From Halomarina oriensis (GTDB lineage: Archaea > Halobacteriota > Halobacteria > Halobacteriales > Haloarculaceae), in the NCBI RefSeq assembly GCF_009791395.1, contig NZ_WSZK01000015.1:620001-684000 (forward strand): 64,000 nt of DNA, in the 5' to 3' direction. Below, one piece after another: positions 21,661-34,061 of the stretch. A program made the translations under genes and the position numbers. How positions within the stretch are numbered: the stretch's first letter is position 1; every line of letters begins with the position of its first letter. The notes beneath the pieces were generated by a model that did not search any database, had not been told where the DNA came from, and saw nothing but the letters and a program-made list of their open reading frames with translations.

Positions 21661-22980
21661 ATGGTCGACGTGAACGAGCCGACCCGCATCGCCCATCGGC
21701 TCAATCGGAGTTGGGAGCTTCTCGAGGACGCCGACATCAACGACCGAGACCGCGACGCCATCCGGGCGTTCGTCACGTGGCGTCGCGACTCGAAGGGATT
21801 GGCTCGGAACACGCTTCGCAGCGACATCTCTAATCTGAAGTGCTCGGCCGAGCGAGCGGCCGTCCCGCTGCTCGACATGGGTCTCGAAGACGTCGAGCGA
21901 CTGTTCTCGACGCTCGTCGCCCCGAGCGATGCCGGCGGGTACGGGCTCTCCCGTGACGGCTCTGCCATCTTCGGCTATTCGCGCACGCTGCGGCTGTTCT
22001 TCCGCTATCTCGATGGCCGTGATTCCTACGACGCCTATGCGTTCCATGATGACATCGAACTCCCGGAGGTCGAGGTCCGAGGGGCCTCTAATCGTGATGC
22101 GATGCTGACCGGCGAGGAGATCGAGGCGATCAAAGACGCCACGACGAACGCTCGCGATCGCGCGCTCGTCTCGCTCCTGGGCGACATCGGCGGGCGAATC
22201 GGACTCGTGCTCTCGCTTCGCGTCGGTGACGTCCACCTCGACGGTGACGAGCCGTATCTGACGCCGAACACCGACGTCGAAGACGGCCTGAAGGATCTGA
22301 GCCTGGAGGCCATCCCGATTCTCCACTCCCGAGCAGACCTGCGGGCGTGGCTTCGCCACCCGCATCCCGCGCCCGACATGGACGAGGCACCGCTCTGGGC
22401 GATTCGTCGCGGCTTCGACCGAGACGAAGCTCAGCAGTGTGCGCTGAGCGACTCGCGAGCGCGCAACCTCATCCGTGACGCAGCCGAGCGCGCCGGCGTC
22501 AAGAAACCGACCGACCCGCACAACTTCCGGCGGACGGCGGCGACGCGGCTGAGCAACTCCGACCGACTCACGCCCCAGGAGATCCAGTCGATCACCGGCT
22601 GGAAGTCCTCGACGCTGAGCGAGATGATCGACGTCTACGACTACACGAGCGACGCCGAGCGCGCCTCGGCCATCCATCAGGCGCTCGGGTTCAGCGCTGG
22701 CACTGAAGACGACGAGAACGCTCTCACGCTCGAATCCCTTCCGTGTGGGACGTGCCGCGAGACGGTTTCGACGAGCGCTGACTACTGTCCGAACTGCGGA
22801 GCGCCCCAGGACGAGGTCGCTCGGAAAGTGAAAGACACCGCCGAGAACGAAGCTGTCGAAGACATCGCGAGCGCCGAGACGGACATCGAGCGCCTGCTCG
22901 GCCAGGCGGTGTTCGAGCGTGTCAAGAACGACCCCGAAGCGCTCGAAACGGTCAAAGACGAGCTGGGTATCGACGTCTAA
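21661..22980 (+). CDS. int: Tyrosine recombinase (integrase) with C-terminal zinc ribbon
   Basis: 439 residues. The N-terminal SAM-like core-binding domain (about 5-125) precedes the catalytic domain. That domain shows Arg179 (GGRIGLVLSLRVGD), the HxxR box H287-N-F-R290, Trp314 at the second His/Trp position (ITGWKSS) and the nucleophile Tyr326 or Tyr328 (EMIDVYDYTS). A four-cysteine ribbon (C362, C365, C376, C379) and a helical tail follow, as in many haloarchaeal integrases. The start at 21661 is set by the TATA spacing; an upstream in-frame extension crosses the attachment core and hairpin and is unlikely. It should integrate and excise the provirus. Confidence 0.93.
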   Translation: MVDVNEPTRIAHRLNRSWELLEDADINDRDRDAIRAFVTWRRDSKGLARNTLRSDISNLKCSAERAAVPLLDMGLEDVERLFSTLVAPSDAGGYGLSRDGSAIFGYSRTLRLFFRYLDGRDSYDAYAFHDDIELPEVEVRGASNRDAMLTGEEIEAIKDATTNARDRALVSLLGDIGGRIGLVLSLRVGDVHLDGDEPYLTPNTDVEDGLKDLSLEAIPILHSRADLRAWLRHPHPAPDMDEAPLWAIRRGFDRDEAQQCALSDSRARNLIRDAAERAGVKKPTDPHNFRRTAATRLSNSDRLTPQEIQSITGWKSSTLSEMIDVYDYTSDAERASAIHQALGFSAGTEDDENALTLESLPCGTCRETVSTSADYCPNCGAPQDEVARKVKDTAENEAVEDIASAETDIERLLGQAVFERVKNDPEALETVKDELGIDV

Positions 22981-23970: not shown

Positions 23971-24723
23971 TCAGTCCCTCTGAATCCGCGGTGCGATCAT
24001 GTACTGGGCTGTGCAGTCCTCGCTCGGGTCGAATGTCAGCCGGAGCGGGTGGTCGTCCTTGAGTTGGATCCGAACGTCGACGTCCTTCGTGATGGGCTTC
24101 AACACCGCCTGGAAGTAATCCAGCGAGAGGAGCGTCGTCCCTCCAGCCTCGTACGCGGAGACGGCGATGAGGTCCTCGCGGTCGATGGCGATGTCCATGT
24201 CGTCGGTATCGCCCTGCGCGGTCACGGTGAACTGCTCGTCGAGCGTGTCGAAGCCGAGCGTGATGTGGTCGTTCTCGTCGAGGTTGTCCGCGGCCGTGCC
24301 CGCGGTCAGCAGCGTCCGCCCGTCGACGACGAACTCGCTGTCGTCGATATCAGTGAACGTCGGCTCGTCGCGAATCGCTTCGGGGTCGATGAGTGCGAGC
24401 GAGTAGTCGACGACGCCCGCGGTGATGTCCAGCTTCCGCGTCTCCTCGTTCAGGTCGAGGTAGACCAGTTCGTCACTGCTGGCGACGCTCAGCATGTCCT
24501 TGAGCTTGCCCAGGTTCACGGCAATCGTCTCGCCGTCGGCCTCGTAGCTCTCGAACGCCCCGGCGTCGAGGTTCGCGTCGACACAGGCGACCGTCGCTGG
24601 GTCGGCCATCGTCGAGCGGATGCCTTCCGCGCCGAGGTGGAATCGCGCTTCGTCGACGAGCGGGTCGAGCAGCGCGAGGTAGTCGCTGATAGTCTGCTTC
24701 GTGCAGATGGCCGAGAACGTCAT
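23971..24723 (-). CDS. pcn: Viral PCNA sliding clamp
   Basis: 250 residues, the normal archaeal PCNA length. The start FSAICTKQTISDYLALLDPLVDEARFHLGAEGI and the linker-domain pattern VNLGKLKDMLSVASSDELVYLDL match the two-domain clamp. The C-terminal APRIQRD replaces the more usual core APKI tail. It would encircle DNA as a trimer and tether polymerase or nuclease. It is ATGA-coupled to the gene upstream. Early placement with an exonuclease suggests the virus reprograms replication with its own clamp. Confidence 0.93.
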   Translation of the reverse strand: MTFSAICTKQTISDYLALLDPLVDEARFHLGAEGIRSTMADPATVACVDANLDAGAFESYEADGETIAVNLGKLKDMLSVASSDELVYLDLNEETRKLDITAGVVDYSLALIDPEAIRDEPTFTDIDDSEFVVDGRTLLTAGTAADNLDENDHITLGFDTLDEQFTVTAQGDTDDMDIAIDREDLIAVSAYEAGGTTLLSLDYFQAVLKPITKDVDVRIQLKDDHPLRLTFDPSEDCTAQYMIAPRIQRD

Positions 24724-25133
24724 CGGCGACCCTCCTGAGGGTTCTTGCGACTGTCCACGTCCGGGTTCTCGAAGACGTCGACGTCCTCGCCGAGGACGAA
24801 CGCGAGGTCGCCATCGAAGAGCGACGCCGCCGCGGTCACGCCGTAGTCAGTGACAGTGGACTCGCCGTCCTTCGCGATGGCGCGCTCGAACTGCGTCGTC
24901 CGCGGACTCTTCCGCAAGTAGACGGTCCGGTCGTCGTGGGTGATGCGCGCGACGAGGTCGCCCTCGGCGCGGTAGATGACCTGCTGGAGCTCACGACCGG
25001 TCGCTGGTGAGGGGTCACCACGGGCCGCTCGAACGACGCCGTCGGCGTGGCGGTGGTCGGTGTCGAGAATCCGCTGTTCGACACGCGAGAAGGCGTCACT
25101 ACAGACCCTCATCGAGGGGTTTGCGTCAGTCAC
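24720..25133 (-). CDS. Early viral protein, unknown
   Basis: 137 residues starting from GTG at 25133, which overlaps the exonuclease stop (GTGA). Its stop overlaps the PCNA ATG. The sequence (QQVIYRAEGDLVARITHDDRTVYLRKSPRTTQFERAIA) looks like a small beta-rich domain, but no family is recognised. Confidence 0.55.
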   Translation of the reverse strand: MTDANPSMRVCSDAFSRVEQRILDTDHRHADGVVRAARGDPSPATGRELQQVIYRAEGDLVARITHDDRTVYLRKSPRTTQFERAIAKDGESTVTDYGVTAAASLFDGDLAFVLGEDVDVFENPDVDSRKNPQEGRR

Positions 25134-25642
25134 TCCGACCACCTCGCCAACGTCGCGGACGCACGACGCGCCTGATGAACGGCGTCGTCCAGTGCGTCGT
25201 GGTGGTCGCCCTCGCGTTCGAGGTCCACCGCGCCGGGCATGGCCTTCAGCGTGCGGAAACAGCGCTCGTGATAGAACTCCCACGGAACCGGCGCGTTGGC
25301 CGCGTCGTAGGCGGCTGAGAGAATCTCGCAGTCGAACGACGGCGAGTTGCCCCAGATTTCCTCAGCGCCGGAGTAGAACTCGCTGAACTCGTGGAGAACC
25401 TCGGTGAGTTCGTCGCCGCCAGTGAGCTGTTCCTGCACGTTCTCGTCCTGTCCGAGCCACCACTCCAGCGTCCCGGCGTCGATTTCCAGCCCTGCCTCAT
25501 CGCACGATTTCAGGCTGATAGAACGGGAGAATGTCTCTTTGACGCCTTCCTCATCGAACGCCACAGCCCCCAGACTGAGGATGACACAGCCGGGGTCGAG
25601 GCCGAGCGTTTCGAGGTCGAGCATCACGCGGCGGTCACTCAT
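25130..25642 (-). CDS. DEDDh 3'-5' exonuclease
   Basis: 170 residues. Exo I is Asp9-Leu-Glu11 in VMLDLETLG, Exo II is Asp104 in NSPSFDCEIL, and Exo III is His148 to Asp153 in HHDALDDA. That is the RNase T/DnaQ-like fold, closest in feel to short phage 3'-5' exonucleases (Rv2179c-like). It probably trims DNA or RNA ends during viral replication. The start overlaps the upstream stop by 8 bp. Confidence 0.88.
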   Translation of the reverse strand: MSDRRVMLDLETLGLDPGCVILSLGAVAFDEEGVKETFSRSISLKSCDEAGLEIDAGTLEWWLGQDENVQEQLTGGDELTEVLHEFSEFYSGAEEIWGNSPSFDCEILSAAYDAANAPVPWEFYHERCFRTLKAMPGAVDLEREGDHHDALDDAVHQARRASATLARWSE

Positions 25643-26246
25643 CGGCATCACCGCCGATGATGTCCGCGACGAGTTCGGCGCGGAGGTCGACCGCGCGAAT
25701 CTCACGGGCGCGTTCGAGTTCGTCACGGGCGTTCTGGATGTGTTCGAGAACGACGTCGTCCAGCGCCCCGCCCGCGACACCGAAGCTGTAGAGCTCCTCG
25801 TCGACGAGCGTGTTCAGCTTCGACCAGGCGGGATCGTCGAACCGGCGGTTCAGTTCGCGGTCCTCGATTGACTGGCGAAGCGACCGTTCGTCGACACCGC
25901 CGTCGGTCAGGACGTCGGGGTCATCACGGGCGAGGTGGAGCAGTCGGGGCTCGCCGTCGCGCATGAACAACACGGCCGTCTCGGGGTCCATCAGCGAGAG
26001 CCCGAGCGTGGCGACGCGGTGGCCCTGCCCGGTGGCGTGGCCCGCCGCCGCGTTCCGCAGGTTCGTCCGCGCCTGGCTGTTCAGCTCGCGCCAGCCCCGG
26101 TGGTAGTTCAACTCGAAGATGCAGTCGGCTTCGAGGCAGACCGCGCCGGTCTGGATCTCGGCGTCACCGAGCGCCTCACCGACCTCGCGTGCGAGCGACG
26201 CAGTGTTGGTTACCCCCGTGTCGCCCCCAGTGTGGTCGGCGGACAT
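25635..26246 (-). CDS. Early viral protein, unknown
   Basis: 203 residues from MSADHTGG. Soluble and acidic, with GLSLMDPETAVLFMRDGEPRLLHLARDD in the middle and a helical end (LEHIQNARDELERAREI). Not recognised. ATG touches the stop of the membrane protein upstream (TGATG). Confidence 0.55.
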   Translation of the reverse strand: MSADHTGGDTGVTNTASLAREVGEALGDAEIQTGAVCLEADCIFELNYHRGWRELNSQARTNLRNAAAGHATGQGHRVATLGLSLMDPETAVLFMRDGEPRLLHLARDDPDVLTDGGVDERSLRQSIEDRELNRRFDDPAWSKLNTLVDEELYSFGVAGGALDDVVLEHIQNARDELERAREIRAVDLRAELVADIIGGDADE

Positions 26247-27491: not shown

Positions 27492-27640
27492 CCCGCTTTT
27501 GAGGCGAGCGTGACAGGGGGAGCCTGTCGTCCATCCGTGGCAAGGGAGCGCACCCACAAGTACTTTTCCAAAGGGTGCTTTAGGATATGTGTAGGATGAC
27601 CCCGCAAAAACATAGTGAGTCTATGAAAATTCACAAAACC

Positions 27641-27649
27641 GGAGGTGAT
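27641..27649 (+). promoter_or_regulatory. Strong ribosome binding site of the repressor gene
   Basis: GGAGGTGAT is a perfect complement to the 16S rRNA 3' end, just before the ATG at 27650. It decides that start among several in-frame Met codons and is unusual beside the mostly leaderless host genes. Confidence 0.65.
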
Positions 27650-27961
27650 ATGTCGAGTGACGGTGGACGCGAAAACGTCATGCGCGACGACGACGTGCTC
27701 ACCCAGTCGGATGAGCGTGTCCTCGAACTGATCCGCGAGCACGGCAACCTCACTCCCGGCGCAATAAGCAAATTCACGGGTAGCAACGCCGCTTACATCT
27801 CGGCTCGTGCCAGTCGTCTGGTCCGGCTCGGCCTTTTGCACCGAATCGACACAGGACTTTACGGTATCACCGACGACGGCCACGCATTCCTCGACGAGAA
27901 ACTCGAACGAGGGGTTCTCGCCAGTCGCGCCGAAGCGCTCAACGACGACACCACCGAGTAG
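27650..27961 (+). CDS. phiH1-type winged-helix repressor
   Basis: 103 residues. LTQSDERVLELIREHGNLTPGAISKFTGSNAAYISARASRLVRLGLLHRIDTGLYGITDDGHAFLDEKLE follows the pattern of the Halobacterium virus phiH1 repressor family: winged helix, then a Gly-Tyr wing and DGHAFLD tail. It is divergent from the early operon, so it probably keeps the provirus silent. Confidence 0.85.
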   Translation: MSSDGGRENVMRDDDVLTQSDERVLELIREHGNLTPGAISKFTGSNAAYISARASRLVRLGLLHRIDTGLYGITDDGHAFLDEKLERGVLASRAEALNDDTTE

Positions 27962-27973
27962 CCACCACATCGC

Positions 27974-28255
27974 CTATCGCCACTCCACCTGCGACCAGGC
28001 GACGGCCTCGCCGGTTTTCGCGTCGAACAGTTCGTAGTGATCGGGGCTCACCGAGTCGTCGTGTTTCGCCGCATCCGCACACGACCGGCAGAACACGTGG
28101 GAGTTCGTCGGCTCGAACCGGACGTGCCCGTTCGGACAGCGGTATCGACGACGGTCGAGCGGGTCGGTGCTGTCGATCACCACCCGCGGCGGTGCATCAG
28201 CCTGTGAGGAGCCATCCGCTTCCAGACGGACGGCAGGACGACGAGTGCGTGACAT
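27974..28255 (-). CDS. Zinc-finger viral protein
   Basis: 93 residues from MSRTRRPAVRL. The core RYRCPNGHVRFEPTNSHVFCRSCADAAKHD has C-x3-H and CxxC spaced as a zinc site. Basic start and a Trp-rich end (AWSQVEW). It converges on the repressor gene 12 bp away. Common in haloarchaeal viruses; function unknown. Confidence 0.6.
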   Translation of the reverse strand: MSRTRRPAVRLEADGSSQADAPPRVVIDSTDPLDRRRYRCPNGHVRFEPTNSHVFCRSCADAAKHDDSVSPDHYELFDAKTGEAVAWSQVEWR

Positions 28256-28278
28256 CCGAACGGCACGAGGACGTGGGG

Positions 28279-28285
28279 ATAAAAA
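28279..28285 (-). promoter_or_regulatory. TATA box for the zinc-finger gene
   Basis: On the minus strand TTTTTAT, centred 27 bp upstream of the start at 28255. Confidence 0.6.
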
Positions 28286-28436
28286 GCGCCTCTTTGACGC
28301 CTCAGTGAAACTGAAACTATAGCAGAACTGTCCGACGCGCGGCAGACTCACGGCTGACAGGCATATCGACGTGGCGGGCACAAGTGAAAGTGAACCGCCG
28401 TGGCTCTGTAGTATGATAATCCAGAACGCCGAACAC

Positions 28437-28444
28437 TTTTAAAT
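28437..28444 (+). promoter_or_regulatory. TATA box for the Tat lipoprotein gene
   Basis: TTTTAAAT centred 25 bp before the ATG at 28465, a strong leaderless promoter likely active in the lysogen. Confidence 0.65.
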
Positions 28445-28464
28445 GAACCCGTTGACGGACAGTC

Positions 28465-29013
28465 ATGAACCGGCGACGGTATCTGGGCCTGGCTGGGACG
28501 CTCGCAACGACCGTGCTCGCGGGCTGTTCAGCCGATGAAGGTCCGAGTGACTCAGCGAATTCCCAACCCACGAGCGCCACCACCACCGAGGCGTTAGCGA
28601 CGGTTGCCGAGCCCTCGACACCAGCGTCCACTCCGGTCGTCGAGACGCCCGAATCAATCGACCTCGAAGACGAGGACTACCTCGCGTTCTACGAATCGTA
28701 TCTCATCGGCGAGGGTGTCGACGTCACCGACACCCGGATGCAAGAGAGCGTCGTCGGTGTAGCCTATCGAACCGCCCAGACCACCCAAGACGGACTGGCC
28801 GCCGAGATGGGAGTTGTTGGGGGTGCGTACGCCGGGCTGGTTGGCGAAGGCTGGGAGACGGAGGGGCTGTTCGCGCAGATCCTCGACGCGAACAGCCAGC
28901 GAATCGGTGACTTCACCGTGAGCGCCCAAAGTGCCCAGCAGTTCATCAACGGTGAGATCTCTCAAGATGAGTACAGCCTCCGCATCCTCCAGTCGCTGGA
29001 AATCGAAGAGTGA
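28465..29013 (+). CDS. Tat-exported lipoprotein, unknown (accessory gene)
   Basis: 182 residues. The signal is NRRRYLGLAG and the lipobox VLAGC has Cys21. A Ser/Thr-rich tether to about residue 65 leads to a small helical domain (GLAAEMGVVGGAYAGLVGEGW, AQSAQQFINGEISQDEYSLRILQSLEIEE). It would be anchored outside the cell membrane. It has its own promoter within the lysogeny region, so it may be a lysogenic conversion gene. Confidence 0.7.
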   Translation: MNRRRYLGLAGTLATTVLAGCSADEGPSDSANSQPTSATTTEALATVAEPSTPASTPVVETPESIDLEDEDYLAFYESYLIGEGVDVTDTRMQESVVGVAYRTAQTTQDGLAAEMGVVGGAYAGLVGEGWETEGLFAQILDANSQRIGDFTVSAQSAQQFINGEISQDEYSLRILQSLEIEE

Positions 29014-29070
29014 GGCGACACACGTAGTCCGGACTCTTGATTCACCTCTGCGATAGCAGAATACTGTGGC

Positions 29071-30096
29071 TCAGGGAAGCGACTCACACGCGACGCCGTC
29101 GCCATCACCGTCCAGTCGGTGCGGGTCACCGGGCTCGTCTTCGAGGACGGTCTGCGCTTGCTCCTGGGTGTCGAAGTCACCGCAGTTGTAGTCACCATCG
29201 GCGGGAACCGGTGGGACGTCGACTCCACCCTCAGAGGGCACCTCGGTCTTGCGCTCGGTCGGCTCCGGTGTAGACCGTGCTGGCGCTTCGTAACCCCAGA
29301 GCCCGACGCCGTCGTTCTGCGCCGTTCGTTCGGCGCTCGTGAACGCGTTTCGCTCCGAGAAGTCCGTGTCGTACAGGCGTGCGTAGCCCTGCTCGATCAG
29401 TTGGAGATTCACGTTCTCGCCGTTGTGATAGACGTAGACCAGAAGTCGACCGTACGACCCGCGGCGATCCGCACTCGGGTCGGTCTCGATGGTCACCGTT
29501 TCACCGGCCAGGCGCTTGTTCGTGTAGTCACTCGCTTTGTGACCCCAGTCCCGAAGCCACGATTCCCCGTCTCCAGTCCCCGGTATGCCCTCGAACTCAG
29601 CAGGGTCGTTCGTGGTGTGGACCTCCGGCGTGTCGATACCGAGCAGGCGGACATCTTCGACCGAACCGTCCTCGAACTGAACCTCGTAGGTATCCCCGTC
29701 GACGATTCGGACAATCTCGACGGTCCACTCCGTCTGTGGGCCGGATTCGGTCGGCTGGCTCGTTGTCGCCTGCTCGGTTGTCTGCGCAGCGCTCGTCGTT
29801 GACGCCGGTTCGGAGTCCGTTGCCTTCTCGTCGGCCGCCGTGGTGTCGGTCGTCGCTGACTCCGTAGTGGACGCGGTGACCTCGGTACTCGTCGAGGCCG
29901 CGTCGGTGCTTGCCGTGTCTTCCGTCTCCTCCACCGGAGCATCTGTCGCCGTGTCGAGACTGCCGGTCGTGGAGGACGCAGCGTCTGTCGTGTTGTTCGC
30001 ACCGGGGCCTGTCCCAGCGCATCCCGCGAGAACCAACAGCATCCCCAGCACGATTGCGGGCAGAGCCGCCCGCCATCGCACAGGATTATCTGACAT
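29071..30096 (-). CDS. Secreted SNase-like nuclease lipoprotein with Excalibur domain
   Basis: 341 residues. A Sec-type signal with lipobox VLAGC (Cys26) and a long Thr/Ser/Glu/Asp linker (about 30-120) precede a thermonuclease fold: [46 protein letters not shown] and EQGYARLY. Those carry the expected Asp, Arg and Glu catalytic positions. The end [17 protein letters not shown]...[10 protein letters not shown] is a calcium-binding Excalibur motif. It should cut DNA or RNA at the outer face of the membrane. It converges on the Tat lipoprotein gene. Confidence 0.88.
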
Positions 30097-30562
30097 GATA
30101 CTCTCGACAATACACTATCAAATGAGTCTTGTTACAGAGTGTGGGGTCAGTGAAAATCACAATCATCGACTTCCCGACTCCCCCCTCATCGTTGTATACG
30201 GGCGTAGTACAACCGGCTTTACATAACAATGGTGGTGCTATCTGAGTGGGTTACAGTGAACGTTAGCGGCCTCGACCTACCGTTCTGAGAGCGCAGCGAA
30301 TTCATGAGTCCGTCCGGTACGAATATCGCGGGGCACCCTGCCTGAGGCTCCAGTGCCACTGTCGGCACTCGTGAGTGACTGAAAAGGGGGCGTGTAGTGA
30401 CACGCCCGCTCCTGATTCCGTGTGTTGCCACGCGCCCGGAGGACTAATCGGTTCCGGCGAGACTACCCATCGTGTGCCTCCCGCCCGCTGGCGTGCGAGC
30501 GTCGGGACGTCGCCGGGCACTCCTCGCAGCTGAGGACCTCGCCGTGTCGGGTTCACGCCCGC
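30097..30562. other. Gene-poor stretch with stacked hairpins
   Basis: No convincing coding region is seen on either strand over 466 bases; short frames lack starts, acidic bias and family likeness. The part 30097-30240 is relatively AT-rich and may hold the nuclease promoter. The rest contains the hairpins at 30352-30407. Confidence 0.4.
30352..30407. repeat. Three overlapping or tandem hairpins
   Basis: AGTGCC (30352-30357) pairs with GGCACT (30364-30369); CACTCGTGAGTG (30367-30378) is itself a palindrome and competes with it; GGGCGTGT (30388-30395) pairs perfectly with ACACGCCC (30400-30407) across AGTG. Possible terminator for the regulator gene upstream on the minus strand, or a structured RNA. 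Confidence 0.4.
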
Positions 30563-31000
30563 TCATCGGTCGTAGGCCTCGACGAGGTCCTCGTCGCCGC
30601 TCCGTCGGACCCGTGCGAGGTTCAGGACGTCGTTGAGTGCTTGGACGAGCGGGTCGTCCATCTTGATGCGGTAGAGCGGGGAGTTGCCGATGCTCCCTTC
30701 CTGCTCCATGATGCCGTAGCTGGGGCCGTCGTAGTCGTCGTCGGCCGCGTCGGCCGACAGAAGCGCGTCTCGGTTGTTGTACCACGAGTTGCGTCCGAGG
30801 CCCGCTCGCTCGACGATGCTGGTGGGGCTGTCGGCGTCTCCTTCGAGGATGAGCAGGGCGACGATGAGTTTCGCCCGCGACTCGGGCGTCACCAACTGGG
30901 TTAGTGCGTTCGCGTCGAGTATCTCGCTGGCCGTTTCGTAGACCGTGACGTCGTCGTCGGTCGATTCGTCGGTCGCGTCGGTGGTTGGTTCGGGAGTCAT
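30563..31000 (-). CDS. Winged-helix regulator A
   Basis: 145 residues. After an acidic leader, SRAKLIVALLILEGDADSPTSIVERAGLGRNSWYNNRDALLSA forms the helix-turn-helix and GSIGNSPLYRIKMDDPLVQALNDVLNLARV the wing and dimer helix. It is clearly related to the gene diverging from it at 31254. Likely controls the shared 253-bp intergenic region. Confidence 0.7.
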   Translation of the reverse strand: MTPEPTTDATDESTDDDVTVYETASEILDANALTQLVTPESRAKLIVALLILEGDADSPTSIVERAGLGRNSWYNNRDALLSADAADDDYDGPSYGIMEQEGSIGNSPLYRIKMDDPLVQALNDVLNLARVRRSGDEDLVEAYDR

Positions 31001-31253
31001 CTGTCCTCAACGACACCGAGGAGGGCCACCCACTTAGCCGTGTGCAACTACAAACACCACTGTTTGCTGTAAGAAACATGGGTGAGTGAGCAACAGTAGT
31101 AGCGTAGTATGGGGCAGGATGGAGGCACCAACCCACCCGATAGCTGCGGCAGTGCCACTCACTATACTCGCCTGTTACAAAGCCGTTCATCTTTCTGAAC
31201 AGTACTGCCCACTTTTGGGGAATGGCTAAGAGGACGCATCACATGGGTGAGGT
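31001..31253. promoter_or_regulatory. Divergent promoter region of two related regulators
   Basis: Contains two TAGTA words in direct orientation near 31100 (gtagtagcgtagtatgg), a GTTCAtctttcTGAAC palindrome near 31186-31201, and ACTTTTGG near 31211-31218. The ribosome-site-like GGGTGAGGT precedes the ATG at 31254. No gene is seen here. Confidence 0.4.
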
Positions 31254-31697
31254 ATGGATGGACCAACAGACGACTCCCCGGACGTCGAGGAGGCGGCCGA
31301 AAGCGCGCTTCTCACAGACCTGAGCGACGACGAGCGGGCGCAACTCCCGACCCCCGAGGAGGTCGAACAGCGTGCTCAGGACGCTCCGAGCGTCGAGCGC
31401 GACCCGCTCATCGAAGCGCTCACGCCGACGTCGAAGCTCCAGATTCTCTTAGCGCTCATCCGCGTCCGCGGCGAGAAGCTGAATCCCTCGGCGATAGCCG
31501 ACCGGGCGGCGGTTGGGCGGACGTCGGTCTACAAACACCTCGACGATCTCCTTGCCGACGGTCTCATCGAAGAAGCGGAGAAAGCGGGTAACTCGCCGAT
31601 GTACCGCGTCGACCTCGACGACGACGCAATCCAGCACGTCGTCGCACTTCGGGGTATCATGGCCGCCCGCCGGAACGACCGCCGTGGGGATGAGTAG
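31254..31697 (+). CDS. Winged-helix regulator B
   Basis: 147 residues. SKLQILLALIRVRGEKLNPSAIADRAAVGRTSVYKHLDDLLADGLIEEAEKAGNSPMYRVDLDDDAIQHVV aligns motif by motif with regulator A, notably GNSPxYRxxxDD. Start ATG at 31254 follows GGGTGAGGT. An antagonistic or auto-regulatory pair is plausible. Confidence 0.72.
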   Translation: MDGPTDDSPDVEEAAESALLTDLSDDERAQLPTPEEVEQRAQDAPSVERDPLIEALTPTSKLQILLALIRVRGEKLNPSAIADRAAVGRTSVYKHLDDLLADGLIEEAEKAGNSPMYRVDLDDDAIQHVVALRGIMAARRNDRRGDE

Positions 31698-31723
31698 CCC
31701 GAGAGCATAGACAGCGGCGGTCG

Positions 31724-31825
31724 TTACTGATCGATGACCTCCGCGGCGACGACCCAGCCGTTGCTCGCCAGGTCTCGCAGGTCGGCCGTCTCGGTAGCGT
31801 CGTGATAGCTCAGGCCGCCGAACAC
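31724..31825 (-). CDS. Possible 33-residue ORF
   Basis: From GTG at 31825 the frame reads VFGGLSYHDATETADLRDL and ends WVVAAEVIDQ. It has protein-like composition but no ATG and an upstream stop nearby. Either a tiny gene or a remnant of a longer one. Confidence 0.3.
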   Translation of the reverse strand: MFGGLSYHDATETADLRDLASNGWVVAAEVIDQ

Positions 31826-31834
31826 TTTTCTATC
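31826..31834 (+). promoter_or_regulatory. TATA-like element for the PH-domain gene
   Basis: CTTTTCTATC lies about 25 bp before the GTG at 31854. Confidence 0.5.
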
Positions 31835-31853
31835 ACGTCGGTGTCTCCCCTGT

Positions 31854-32261
31854 GTGACTCAACAGGTAGCCGGTATCTCACTGCTCAATGGGGAAAGCGT
31901 CCAACATGACCTGCGCCCGCGCTGGAGCAAATGGTTTTGGTCGCTGGTCTTTGGAATTGCAACGCTCCCGTTTGTTGTCGGCGTCATCCCGTTGTACTTC
32001 ATTTGGCGCTCCCGGCGCAAGACGCGCTATATCATCACAACTGACCGCGTGATTATCAAGAAAGGCGGATGGACTGGGACGAGCACTGACGAGTATCAAA
32101 TCTCTCAAATCAAGCGCGTCCAGTCCAGTCGCGGGTTCAAAGAAAAGTTGCTCGGAGGTGGGATGCTCACGCTGGACCTCGGCGCGGACTCGATCACGAT
32201 TAAGGGACTGCCGCATTTCTCCCGCGTGAAGACTGACATTCAGAACGCTCAGCGGACCTAA
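31854..32261 (+). CDS. Membrane PH-domain (YdbS/bPH2-like) protein
   Basis: 135 residues. A membrane segment (FWSLVFGIATLPFVVGVIPLYFIW, about 30-53) is followed by RRKTRYIITTDRVIIKKGGWTGTSTDEYQISQIKRVQSS, the start of a bacterial PH domain. Its codon use and lower GC differ from its neighbours, suggesting recent acquisition. Function unknown; membrane-stress or exclusion roles are conceivable. Confidence 0.75.
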   Translation: MTQQVAGISLLNGESVQHDLRPRWSKWFWSLVFGIATLPFVVGVIPLYFIWRSRRKTRYIITTDRVIIKKGGWTGTSTDEYQISQIKRVQSSRGFKEKLLGGGMLTLDLGADSITIKGLPHFSRVKTDIQNAQRT

Positions 32262-32280
32262 TCGTCGTTGTGTGTTTTGG

Positions 32281-32472
32281 TCACGTCTTCACTCGATAGC
32301 GCTCGCCCTCCTCGACGAGTTGCCCATCGGCGACGGCGGTCGCAATGGCATCCCGTGCGCTATCGGGGTCCGTTCGGGAGCGACAGAGTGCGCGCACGAG
32401 GACGTGCTCGGCGAGCTGTGCTTCGACCTCGGTGCGGTAGTCAGTCTGTGTCTTCTGTGTCTCGTGGGTCAT
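32281..32472 (-). CDS. Small viral protein, unknown
   Basis: 63 residues, MTHETQKTQTDYRTEVEAQL, ending with a wing-like VEEGERYRVKT. Might be a reduced winged helix. It overlaps the HTH gene upstream by 32 bp. Confidence 0.5.
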   Translation of the reverse strand: MTHETQKTQTDYRTEVEAQLAEHVLVRALCRSRTDPDSARDAIATAVADGQLVEEGERYRVKT

Positions 32473-32680
32473 TTTTGAGAATCCAGAATGCGGTCGGTTC
32501 GTGAACGTAGTCGATGCAGCCCGCCGTGTAGAGTCGGTCGAGGCGTTTGCCGAGCGTCGGCCGGGTCAGACCCGTCTGTTCGACGAGGTAGCCGGTCGTC
32601 GCGTAGCCGTGGGTTTGGAACGCGTCAAGCACCGCCTCGGTCTTGTCGTCGACTCGGAGTGGCATTGGTTGGTTGCTCAT
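32441..32680 (-). CDS. Winged-helix DNA-binding protein
   Basis: 79 residues. DDKTEAVLDAFQTHGYATTGYLVEQTGLTRPTLGKRLDRLYTAGCIDYVHEPTAFWIL is a compact winged helix. It lies beside two TAGTA/TACTA inverted repeats in its promoter region, the natural candidates for its operators. Confidence 0.7.
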   Translation of the reverse strand: MSNQPMPLRVDDKTEAVLDAFQTHGYATTGYLVEQTGLTRPTLGKRLDRLYTAGCIDYVHEPTAFWILKNDPRDTEDTD

Positions 32681-32696
32681 CCGGTCACCAGTGGCT

Positions 32697-32711
32697 TAGT
32701 AGGGTGTACTA
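32697..32711. promoter_or_regulatory. Candidate operator 1
   Basis: TAGTAgggtgTACTA, an inverted repeat with a 5-bp spacer, 17-31 bp upstream of the winged-helix gene start at 32680. Confidence 0.5.
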
Positions 32712-32765
32712 CAACTTATGTTTCTTGGTCATCCGATAAACAGACCGATTGATTAGCTTAACAAG

Positions 32766-32778
32766 TAGTAAAGTACTA
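32766..32778. promoter_or_regulatory. Candidate operator 2
   Basis: TAGTAaagTACTA, the same half-sites with a 3-bp spacer, 26-38 bp before the ATG at 32804 of the plus-strand gene and hence near its promoter. Confidence 0.5.
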
Positions 32779-32803
32779 GTAGTCCGGGCTACATGGTACA
32801 GAT

Positions 32804-33226
32804 ATGGCTCAGCGGGCGACGGTCGCAGAAAGCGGCCCGGTGCTGAAGACACCGAGTCCGCATGGGCCATGGATTACACCAATGGCAACCACAGAAACGA
32901 CGTCGGCGGATGAAAACTCCACTGCATCGCTTCGCATCCCACCGCTGCCCGTCGCAAAGGCGGCGGCCGAACAGCACGTCCGCGCTCGCGTCTCGTACCT
33001 CAGTCGGCGGACCGGCACGATCCAGTACGTCGAAGGCCGTGTCGTCGAGTGCGCTCACGGCCCCGACGCCGACCGTGGGCAGTACACGCTCACGCTCGCC
33101 ACCACGGACGGTCGGGAGATCATCGCCCACGCGACGCTCCGTGAGGTCCACTCGAAGACCGACGCCTGCCTCACGCGGCTGGGTAACCTCACCGCCATCG
33201 AACCAGCCTACGAGGTCCACGAATGA
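32804..33226 (+). CDS. Viral protein, unknown
   Basis: 140 residues (or 114 from the ATG at 32882, MATTETTSADEN). The domain begins near AAEQHVRARVSYLSRRTGTIQYVEGRVVECAHGPD and has an alternating beta pattern (QYTLTLATTDGREIIAHATL), suggesting a small beta barrel. First of four plus-strand genes with 4-bp overlaps. Confidence 0.55.
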   Translation: MAQRATVAESGPVLKTPSPHGPWITPMATTETTSADENSTASLRIPPLPVAKAAAEQHVRARVSYLSRRTGTIQYVEGRVVECAHGPDADRGQYTLTLATTDGREIIAHATLREVHSKTDACLTRLGNLTAIEPAYEVHE

Positions 33227-33630
33227 CGGTTGAGGACCTGGTCACGACAGCCGCTGCTCGCCTCGCCGCGAACAACCACCCGGACGTGCGCTGGCACGAC
33301 TCTGAGACCGGCCGTGAGCACTATGCCTCGCCGGTCGGCGTGATGGACCTCCTCGACGCTGGGGCGGACCCCGACGACGTCGACGCGGTCCGCCTGGTCT
33401 CCCGTGTCGAGGTGAAGCCCTACGACGGCCCGCCCGTCGACTACGAGTGGCTCGGGTCGGTGACGCGCACACAGCTCCGGGTGATGCGCAACGGCGACGT
33501 CGTCCGGGGGCTGGCGACCGGCGAGGCGCGACAGTCCGACCGGTTCGTCGGCCGTTCGGCGGCCGTCGAGTTCTGCGAGCGCGAAGCTGAAGCATTCCGT
33601 GACGCCGAGGTTCGCGAGGTCGAGCGATGA
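33223..33630 (+). CDS. Viral protein, unknown
   Basis: 135 residues. Contains VGVMDLLDAGADPDDVDAVRLVSRVEVKPYDGPP and a basic stretch (WLGSVTRTQLRVMRNGD). No family recognised. Overlaps its neighbours by 4 bp at both ends. Confidence 0.55.
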   Translation: MTVEDLVTTAAARLAANNHPDVRWHDSETGREHYASPVGVMDLLDAGADPDDVDAVRLVSRVEVKPYDGPPVDYEWLGSVTRTQLRVMRNGDVVRGLATGEARQSDRFVGRSAAVEFCEREAEAFRDAEVREVER

Positions 33631-33752
33631 CCTGTCCGTGCTGCGGGAGCGCCCGCGTGCGGGTAATGGTTCGCGGCGACGAGTTGACCGACCAGTGGGG
33701 GACGGCGAGCGTCCACGCCTGCCTCGACTGCGAGGACCGGTGGTGTGCATGA
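33627..33752 (+). CDS. Zinc-ribbon miniprotein
   Basis: 41 residues, MTCPCCGSARVRVMVRG, then CLDCEDRWC. Two CxxC knuckles make a classic zinc ribbon. Start and stop overlap neighbours as ATGA. Confidence 0.6.
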   Translation: MTCPCCGSARVRVMVRGDELTDQWGTASVHACLDCEDRWCA

Positions 33753-33958
33753 GCACTCACGTCGCCGACGGCCCGCACCCCGAGACGCACTGCGTCTCGT
33801 GTGGGATCGCGCTGCTCGTCGAGGAGTTTGCTCACGGCGACCTCCGCTGTGACACCTGCGACCCGCGGCGGGACACCGACGCCACCCGAGAGTGCTCGAC
33901 GTGCGGGCGAGAGGCCCACCACGCCCGAGTGCGCCGAGGCTTTTGCTGTTCTGACTGA
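33749..33958 (+). CDS. Double zinc-knuckle protein
   Basis: 69 residues with CVSCG, CDTCD, CSTCGR and a final FCCSD, four cysteine pairs arranged as two zinc sites. Last gene of the short plus-strand operon, ahead of the terminator hairpin. Role unknown. Confidence 0.6.
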   Translation: MSTHVADGPHPETHCVSCGIALLVEEFAHGDLRCDTCDPRRDTDATRECSTCGREAHHARVRRGFCCSD

Positions 33959-33988
33959 CGAGCGTCGCCACTGTTCGCTGTTCTTCTA

Positions 33989-34031
33989 CCCCTCGCCTTC
34001 AACTGGAGTGACAGCTCCATCCGGCGAGGGG
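33989..34031. terminator. Nested hairpin between converging operons
   Basis: CCCCTCGCC (33989-33997) pairs perfectly with GGCGAGGGG (34023-34031), and an inner TGGAG (34004-34008) pairs with CTCCA (34015-34019). It lies between the plus-strand zinc genes and the end of the late minus-strand module, so it probably ends transcription in both directions. Confidence 0.55.
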
Positions 34032-34061
34032 ACACACTACGCTTCCGCTGAAAAGGAGTCT

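Follow-up and report, generated by a model that had tools for sequence, protein, structure and literature searches.

Two predicted surface lipoproteins, one a putative nuclease, in the lysogeny region of a haloarchaeal tailed provirus

Exclusion lipoproteins and surface nucleases described so far

Superinfection exclusion by archaeal tailed proviruses has hardly been described, and it comes up in a survey of 38 archaeal proviruses only by way of intracellular defence genes (PMC11705971). For a lipoprotein encoded near a regulator, the described precedent is bacterial: Ltp of Streptococcus thermophilus phage TP-J34 is expressed from the lysogeny module, is anchored outside the cytoplasmic membrane, and blocks the injection of phage DNA (PMC3952083).

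As for surface nucleases, two relatives have been tested. YokF is carried by the Bacillus prophage SPbeta and is built from a lipobox, an SNase domain (Pfam 9.5e-33) and a C-terminal Excalibur motif (9.4e-14, 51.9 bits), in this order; a passage in PMC4774983 cites it as lowering transformation about tenfold. Hvo_1477 of Haloferax volcanii is a chromosomally encoded SNase lipoprotein predicted to lie at the cell surface, and its deletion diminishes growth on extracellular DNA as phosphorus source, while the import of intact DNA was not conclusively demonstrated in the same work (PMC3929857). Another SNase, gp04, is encoded by the pleomorphic provirus ApPV1 of Archaeoglobus profundus. This pleolipovirus-like provirus protein (L101:4478-5170) is annotated as hypothetical, and a signal sequence may have been lost upstream of its annotated GTG start.

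The two genes and their setting

The stretch of DNA analysed here, called the window, comprises 64,000 nucleotides (G000:C7:620001-684000) of a 4.07 Mb haloarchaeal genome. A tailed provirus spans ∼21.6 kb to at least 62 kb of it, and its hallmarks, recognized by PHROG matches, are a tyrosine integrase (21661-22980), a terminase, a portal and an MCM-like helicase; a search for att sites gave no convincing direct repeat. The provirus also encodes a PCNA-like clamp (PCNA_N 1.8e-6) and, adjacent to it, a DnaQ-like exonuclease recognized by eye (window 23971-24723 and 25130-25648).

The genes g35 and g36 have the early genes of the provirus on one side and its tail genes on the other; they lie just downstream of the MarR-like regulator g33 and converge on a gap of 57 bp (Table 1). 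A first-pass annotation had described a Tat lipoprotein with its own strong promoter that faces an SNase-fold lipoprotein with an Excalibur motif, next to the repressor of a lysogenic virus rather than in its late genes. The provirus setting is upheld by the four hallmarks, the facing pair by the lipoboxes, the Pfam matches and the convergent layout, and the promoter by its match and spacing, as a prediction. The two genes do lie outside the late genes and beside g33; that g33 is the lysogeny repressor is a putative assignment.

Table 1. Features of the lysogeny-region locus (positions in the window).
Feature	Position	Strand	Description and basis
g33, MarR-like winged-helix regulator, putative repressor	27587..27961 (start 27587 or 27650)	+	phrog_2440 transcriptional regulator, E=8.8e-19; relatives adjoin the lipoprotein in three sister proviruses
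Accessory locus, regulator to tail genes	27962..34061		Content varies among sister proviruses; gene content of four proviruses compared
g35 promoter (predicted)	28429..28443	+	CCGAACACTTTTAAA; TATA box TTTTAAA at -28 to ATG, 7/7 match
g35, Tat lipoprotein, 182 aa	28465..29013	+	MNRRRYL motif, LAGC lipobox; low-complexity linker, then compact alpha/beta ectodomain (residues ∼69-178)
g36, lipobox-bearing exported nuclease (predicted), 341 aa	29071..30096	-	Pfam SNase 4.8e-21, Excalibur 2e-6
Putative calcium-binding Excalibur motif, residues 303-338 of g36	29083..29190	-	PF05901, 28.5 bits vs cut-off 22
SNase catalytic domain of g36 (residues 127-269)	29290..29718	-	phmmer match to the S. aureus nuclease of solved structure, E=1.6e-9
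TATA-like box before g36 (weak), TTTGATA at -26	30116..30122	-	6/7 match; at least 6/7 at 0.18% of random positions
Small membrane protein with bPH_2 domain	31854..32261	+	PF03703, 1.5e-7; shares g35 promoter box; relative in same locus of G052 provirus

The N-terminus of g35, MNRRRYLGLAGTLATTVLAGC, combines a twin-arginine motif with a lipobox at Cys21, and AlphaFold2 gives residues 71-180 a block-mean pLDDT of 95-98, which predicts the compact ectodomain with confidence. Pfam, PHROG, NCBIfam and PADLOC offer no family for g35: the best match across all of Pfam is LPAM_1, at E=0.81 only. In a fold search there was no match at E<0.001, and the weak resemblances were to lipoproteins such as sex-pheromone precursors, secretion pilotins and one phage lipoprotein. 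Relatives of g35 were not found in IMG/VR or phage records; distant relatives of its domain are widespread in the family, both as lipoproteins and as proteins of ∼120 residues without a signal peptide. The gene is under purifying selection, as judged by dN/dS. Its TATA box would stand where it is expected for a leaderless haloarchaeal transcript, and of positions drawn at random from the window, 0.08% have a 7/7 match in the corresponding interval. A 12-base box, CCGAACACTTTT, has two copies in the window (0.13 expected), one before g35 and the other before the bPH gene at 31854.

In g36, a signal peptide is followed by a Thr/Ser/acidic linker, the SNase domain and the Excalibur motif, and both domain scores exceed the curated cut-offs of Pfam, which bears out the earlier domain assignment. 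The first 26 residues hold the lipobox MLLVLAGC with Cys26, a call made from the motif only, and no RR; therefore, the protein is probably exported by the Sec route. Alignment shows that all six catalytic residues are kept (equivalents of S. aureus D21, R35, D40, T41, E43 and R87). A probably secreted protein encoded elsewhere in the same genome (L040:1658-2773, G000:C36) has two Excalibur motifs and no SNase domain, and one of these motifs is 70% identical to that of g36.

By the order of its parts, g36 would be the archaeal-provirus counterpart of YokF, from which it differs in that the two align over the SNase domain alone, with about 32% identity, and the YokF host is bacterial. Hvo_1477 shares with g36 the haloarchaeal origin and the SNase lipoprotein type, whereas it has a lamin-tail domain in place of Excalibur; Pfam gives no lamin-tail (LTD) match in g36. 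ApPV1 gp04 resembles g36 in being an archaeal provirus SNase with an Excalibur-like C-terminus, and differs from it in being 33% identical, with the Excalibur model below threshold and no clear lipobox in the annotated protein.

A bPH gene occurs near the SNase lipoprotein both in the window (31854-32261) and in SPbeta, where yokE lies directly downstream of yokF (L108:3698-4180), and another is found in the G052 locus (L099:11040-11447). The association of the window and SPbeta may be a coincidence, because the families differ: bPH_3 beside yokF and bPH_2 near g36.

Sister proviruses and relatives of the nuclease

Sister proviruses of the same genus and the same lineage were located in G055, G056 and G052 via a tail-region protein. 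Their late genes are collinear with those of the window and mostly 35-83% identical. Each of the four proviruses has a gene for a Tat lipoprotein that follows the regulator at 0.3-1.3 kb and shares its strand, as would fit a surface function expressed in lysogeny, exclusion for example. The nuclease is found at this locus in none of the three sisters. The intervening genes vary: G055 has one HamA-like and one HNH gene together with a weak match to rhomboid, G052 a bPH gene, and G056 two small genes in common with the window. The HamA-like (Hachiman) gene of G055 (L074:10465-12292, PADLOC E=3e-6) is accompanied by an uncharacterised partner, and the two are a candidate defence pair carried by the provirus.

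The lipoproteins themselves differ from one provirus to the next. Those of the window and G056 have in common their signal peptide and the 15 bases that precede the ATG, while their ectodomains are unrelated; that of G055 joins a domain of the window type to an FxLYD domain akin to the one in G056. On these comparisons, the pattern can be read as ectodomain swapping in a fixed lipoprotein slot. The conserved element would then best be read as this slot, and the nuclease as a separate acquisition.

The nearest relative of the nuclease is chromosomal, in the sister species G054 (70% identical; tree support 100/98), and its closest nuclease relatives in general sit in host chromosomes. SNase relatives occur in 112 of the 146 genomes of the family, many of those examined with a lamin-tail-like C-terminus. 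Within G000 itself, the other SNase-domain proteins come from far longer reading frames and share only 36% identity with g36. SNases of this kind are also present in 22 Bacillus phage records, in ApPV1 and in one IMG/VR contig, and on plasmids of Haladaptatus, Haloarcula, Halococcus, Actinarchaeum, Salinibacter and Thermus.

Against the G054 relative, the dN/dS of g36 is 0.22 for the SNase domain, 0.21 for Excalibur and about 1.1 for the linker; therefore, the catalytic parts are kept and the linker is unconstrained. The structural genes of the provirus, compared between the window and G055, give 0.11-0.23, similar to the two g36 domains.

The nuclease gene is rare among the sampled haloarchaeal proviruses. 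The idea that it is a recurrent gene of haloarchaeal tailed proviruses was set aside, for 27 terminase matches in 23 genomes included an SNase clearly inside a provirus only in the window; one other pair, in G082, is 41 kb apart. Also abandoned was the idea that the SNase-Excalibur architecture belongs to mobile elements alone: the genus has three chromosomal copies, and the excess on secondary replicons stems from one other genus.

Possible functions of the two lipoproteins

From the sequences, we infer that g35 and g36 are exported, lipidated, expressed and active, which would make them good candidates for controllers of which DNA and which viruses enter the cell. The first-pass annotation had anchored both at the outer membrane face. 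This location has to be amended, as haloarchaea have no outer membrane: their one membrane is the cytoplasmic membrane, and the proteins would be held in its outer leaflet, beneath the S-layer.

The reading that we prefer, with a probability of roughly 0.4, is that a temperate haloarchaeal tailed virus carries g35 and g36 in its accessory locus as surface cargo independent of each other, with g36 acting as a barrier to naked DNA and g35 in an Ltp-like exclusion. The product of g36 would be a lipid-anchored, probably calcium-dependent nuclease of the YokF/Hvo_1477 type that cuts DNA at the outer face of the membrane. The provirus would benefit by being shielded from naked DNA able to recombine it away or to bring in competitors, and the host would obtain phosphate from extracellular DNA as a by-product. 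As for g35, it would occupy the conserved slot next to the regulator; it is probably expressed in the lysogen and would most likely interfere with the adsorption or DNA entry of related viruses. Since Ltp blocks DNA injection from a lysogeny module (PMC3952083), g35 may work in the same manner, though outside the Ltp family: it has no Ltp match in Pfam, and the activity and expression proven for Ltp are in g35 only predicted. The slot would thus be analogous, not homologous, to Ltp.

Within this preferred reading, g36 is most likely accessory cargo whose product breaks down DNA outside the membrane, and the lipoprotein slot is the better candidate for superinfection exclusion. For the nuclease, growth on extracellular DNA is backed by Hvo_1477 (PMC3929857) and a barrier to naked DNA by YokF, to the extent of the passage in PMC4774983. 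Of the roles first suggested, destruction of viral DNA is the least supported, because these tested relatives act in growth on DNA and, according to that passage, in transformation; killing of injected viral DNA by g36 is possible.

Could g36 instead be a nutritional moron, an Hvo_1477-type enzyme, acquired second-hand, that supplies the lysogen with phosphorus from extracellular DNA and plays no part in exclusion? This is a serious, if tentative, alternative. The growth defect of the Hvo_1477 deletion on DNA (PMC3929857) and the many SNase relatives in the family agree with it, and g36 may fill a gap, given that the other SNase proteins of its genome are longer and only distantly similar. The chromosomal nearest relative, together with the role of Hvo_1477 in the use of DNA phosphorus, also weighs against a barrier cargo, and, as the import of intact DNA was not conclusively demonstrated in H. 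volcanii (PMC3929857), a transformation barrier may protect little. However, Hvo_1477 carries the lamin-tail domain and g36 the Excalibur architecture of the phage protein YokF. This phage-borne architecture and the recurrence of similar genes on mobile elements place the DNA barrier slightly ahead; the nutritional role follows closely in likelihood, and one does not exclude the other.

A bolder proposal, which we consider doubtful, builds on the slot: the proviruses would keep a fixed promoter and Tat signal beside the repressor, each swapped ectodomain would confer a different specificity of superinfection exclusion, and here a YokF-like surface nuclease would have joined to destroy the excluded DNA. 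If true, this would be, to our knowledge, the first surface exclusion system known for archaeal tailed viruses.

Neutral hitchhiking of both genes from host chromosomes is unlikely. Chromosomal relatives of both are common and the content of the locus varies, but purifying selection on g35 and on the catalytic domain of g36, and the retention of the slot in four of four proviruses, argue otherwise.

Even less probable is a dedicated exclusion system in which g35 diverts viral DNA under the S-layer and g36 destroys it. The genes are convergent neighbours beside a regulator, both with lipoboxes, and superinfecting T4 DNA is degraded by endonuclease I in the periplasm of E. coli. Yet the sister proviruses retain a lipoprotein in the slot and have no nuclease at the locus, the promoters of g35 and g36 are unlike in strength and sequence, and no second genome has relatives of both genes within 20 kb among the matches listed for the 146 genomes, compared by eye. 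One conserved system was therefore rejected. What stands of the two-gene superinfection-exclusion candidate proposed at first is a pair of predicted exported lipoproteins, one a nuclease, outside the late genes, with a slot kept in all four proviruses.

A lytic-phase role for g36, such as degrading host or extracellular DNA at lysis, is very improbable: the gene is on the late-gene strand and many lytic phages encode SNases, but opposite-strand genes separate it from the tail genes, its lipobox would anchor it, and sister proviruses with the same late genes have no g36.

On the preferred reading, in which the benefits to provirus and host are proposed from the comparisons above, these genes offer concrete targets: a lipoprotein slot with exchangeable ectodomains in the lysogeny region, and a protein with the architecture of YokF in an archaeal provirus. 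Should g36 indeed restrict the uptake of DNA, archaea would share the conflict of mobile elements with transformation that is known from bacteria.
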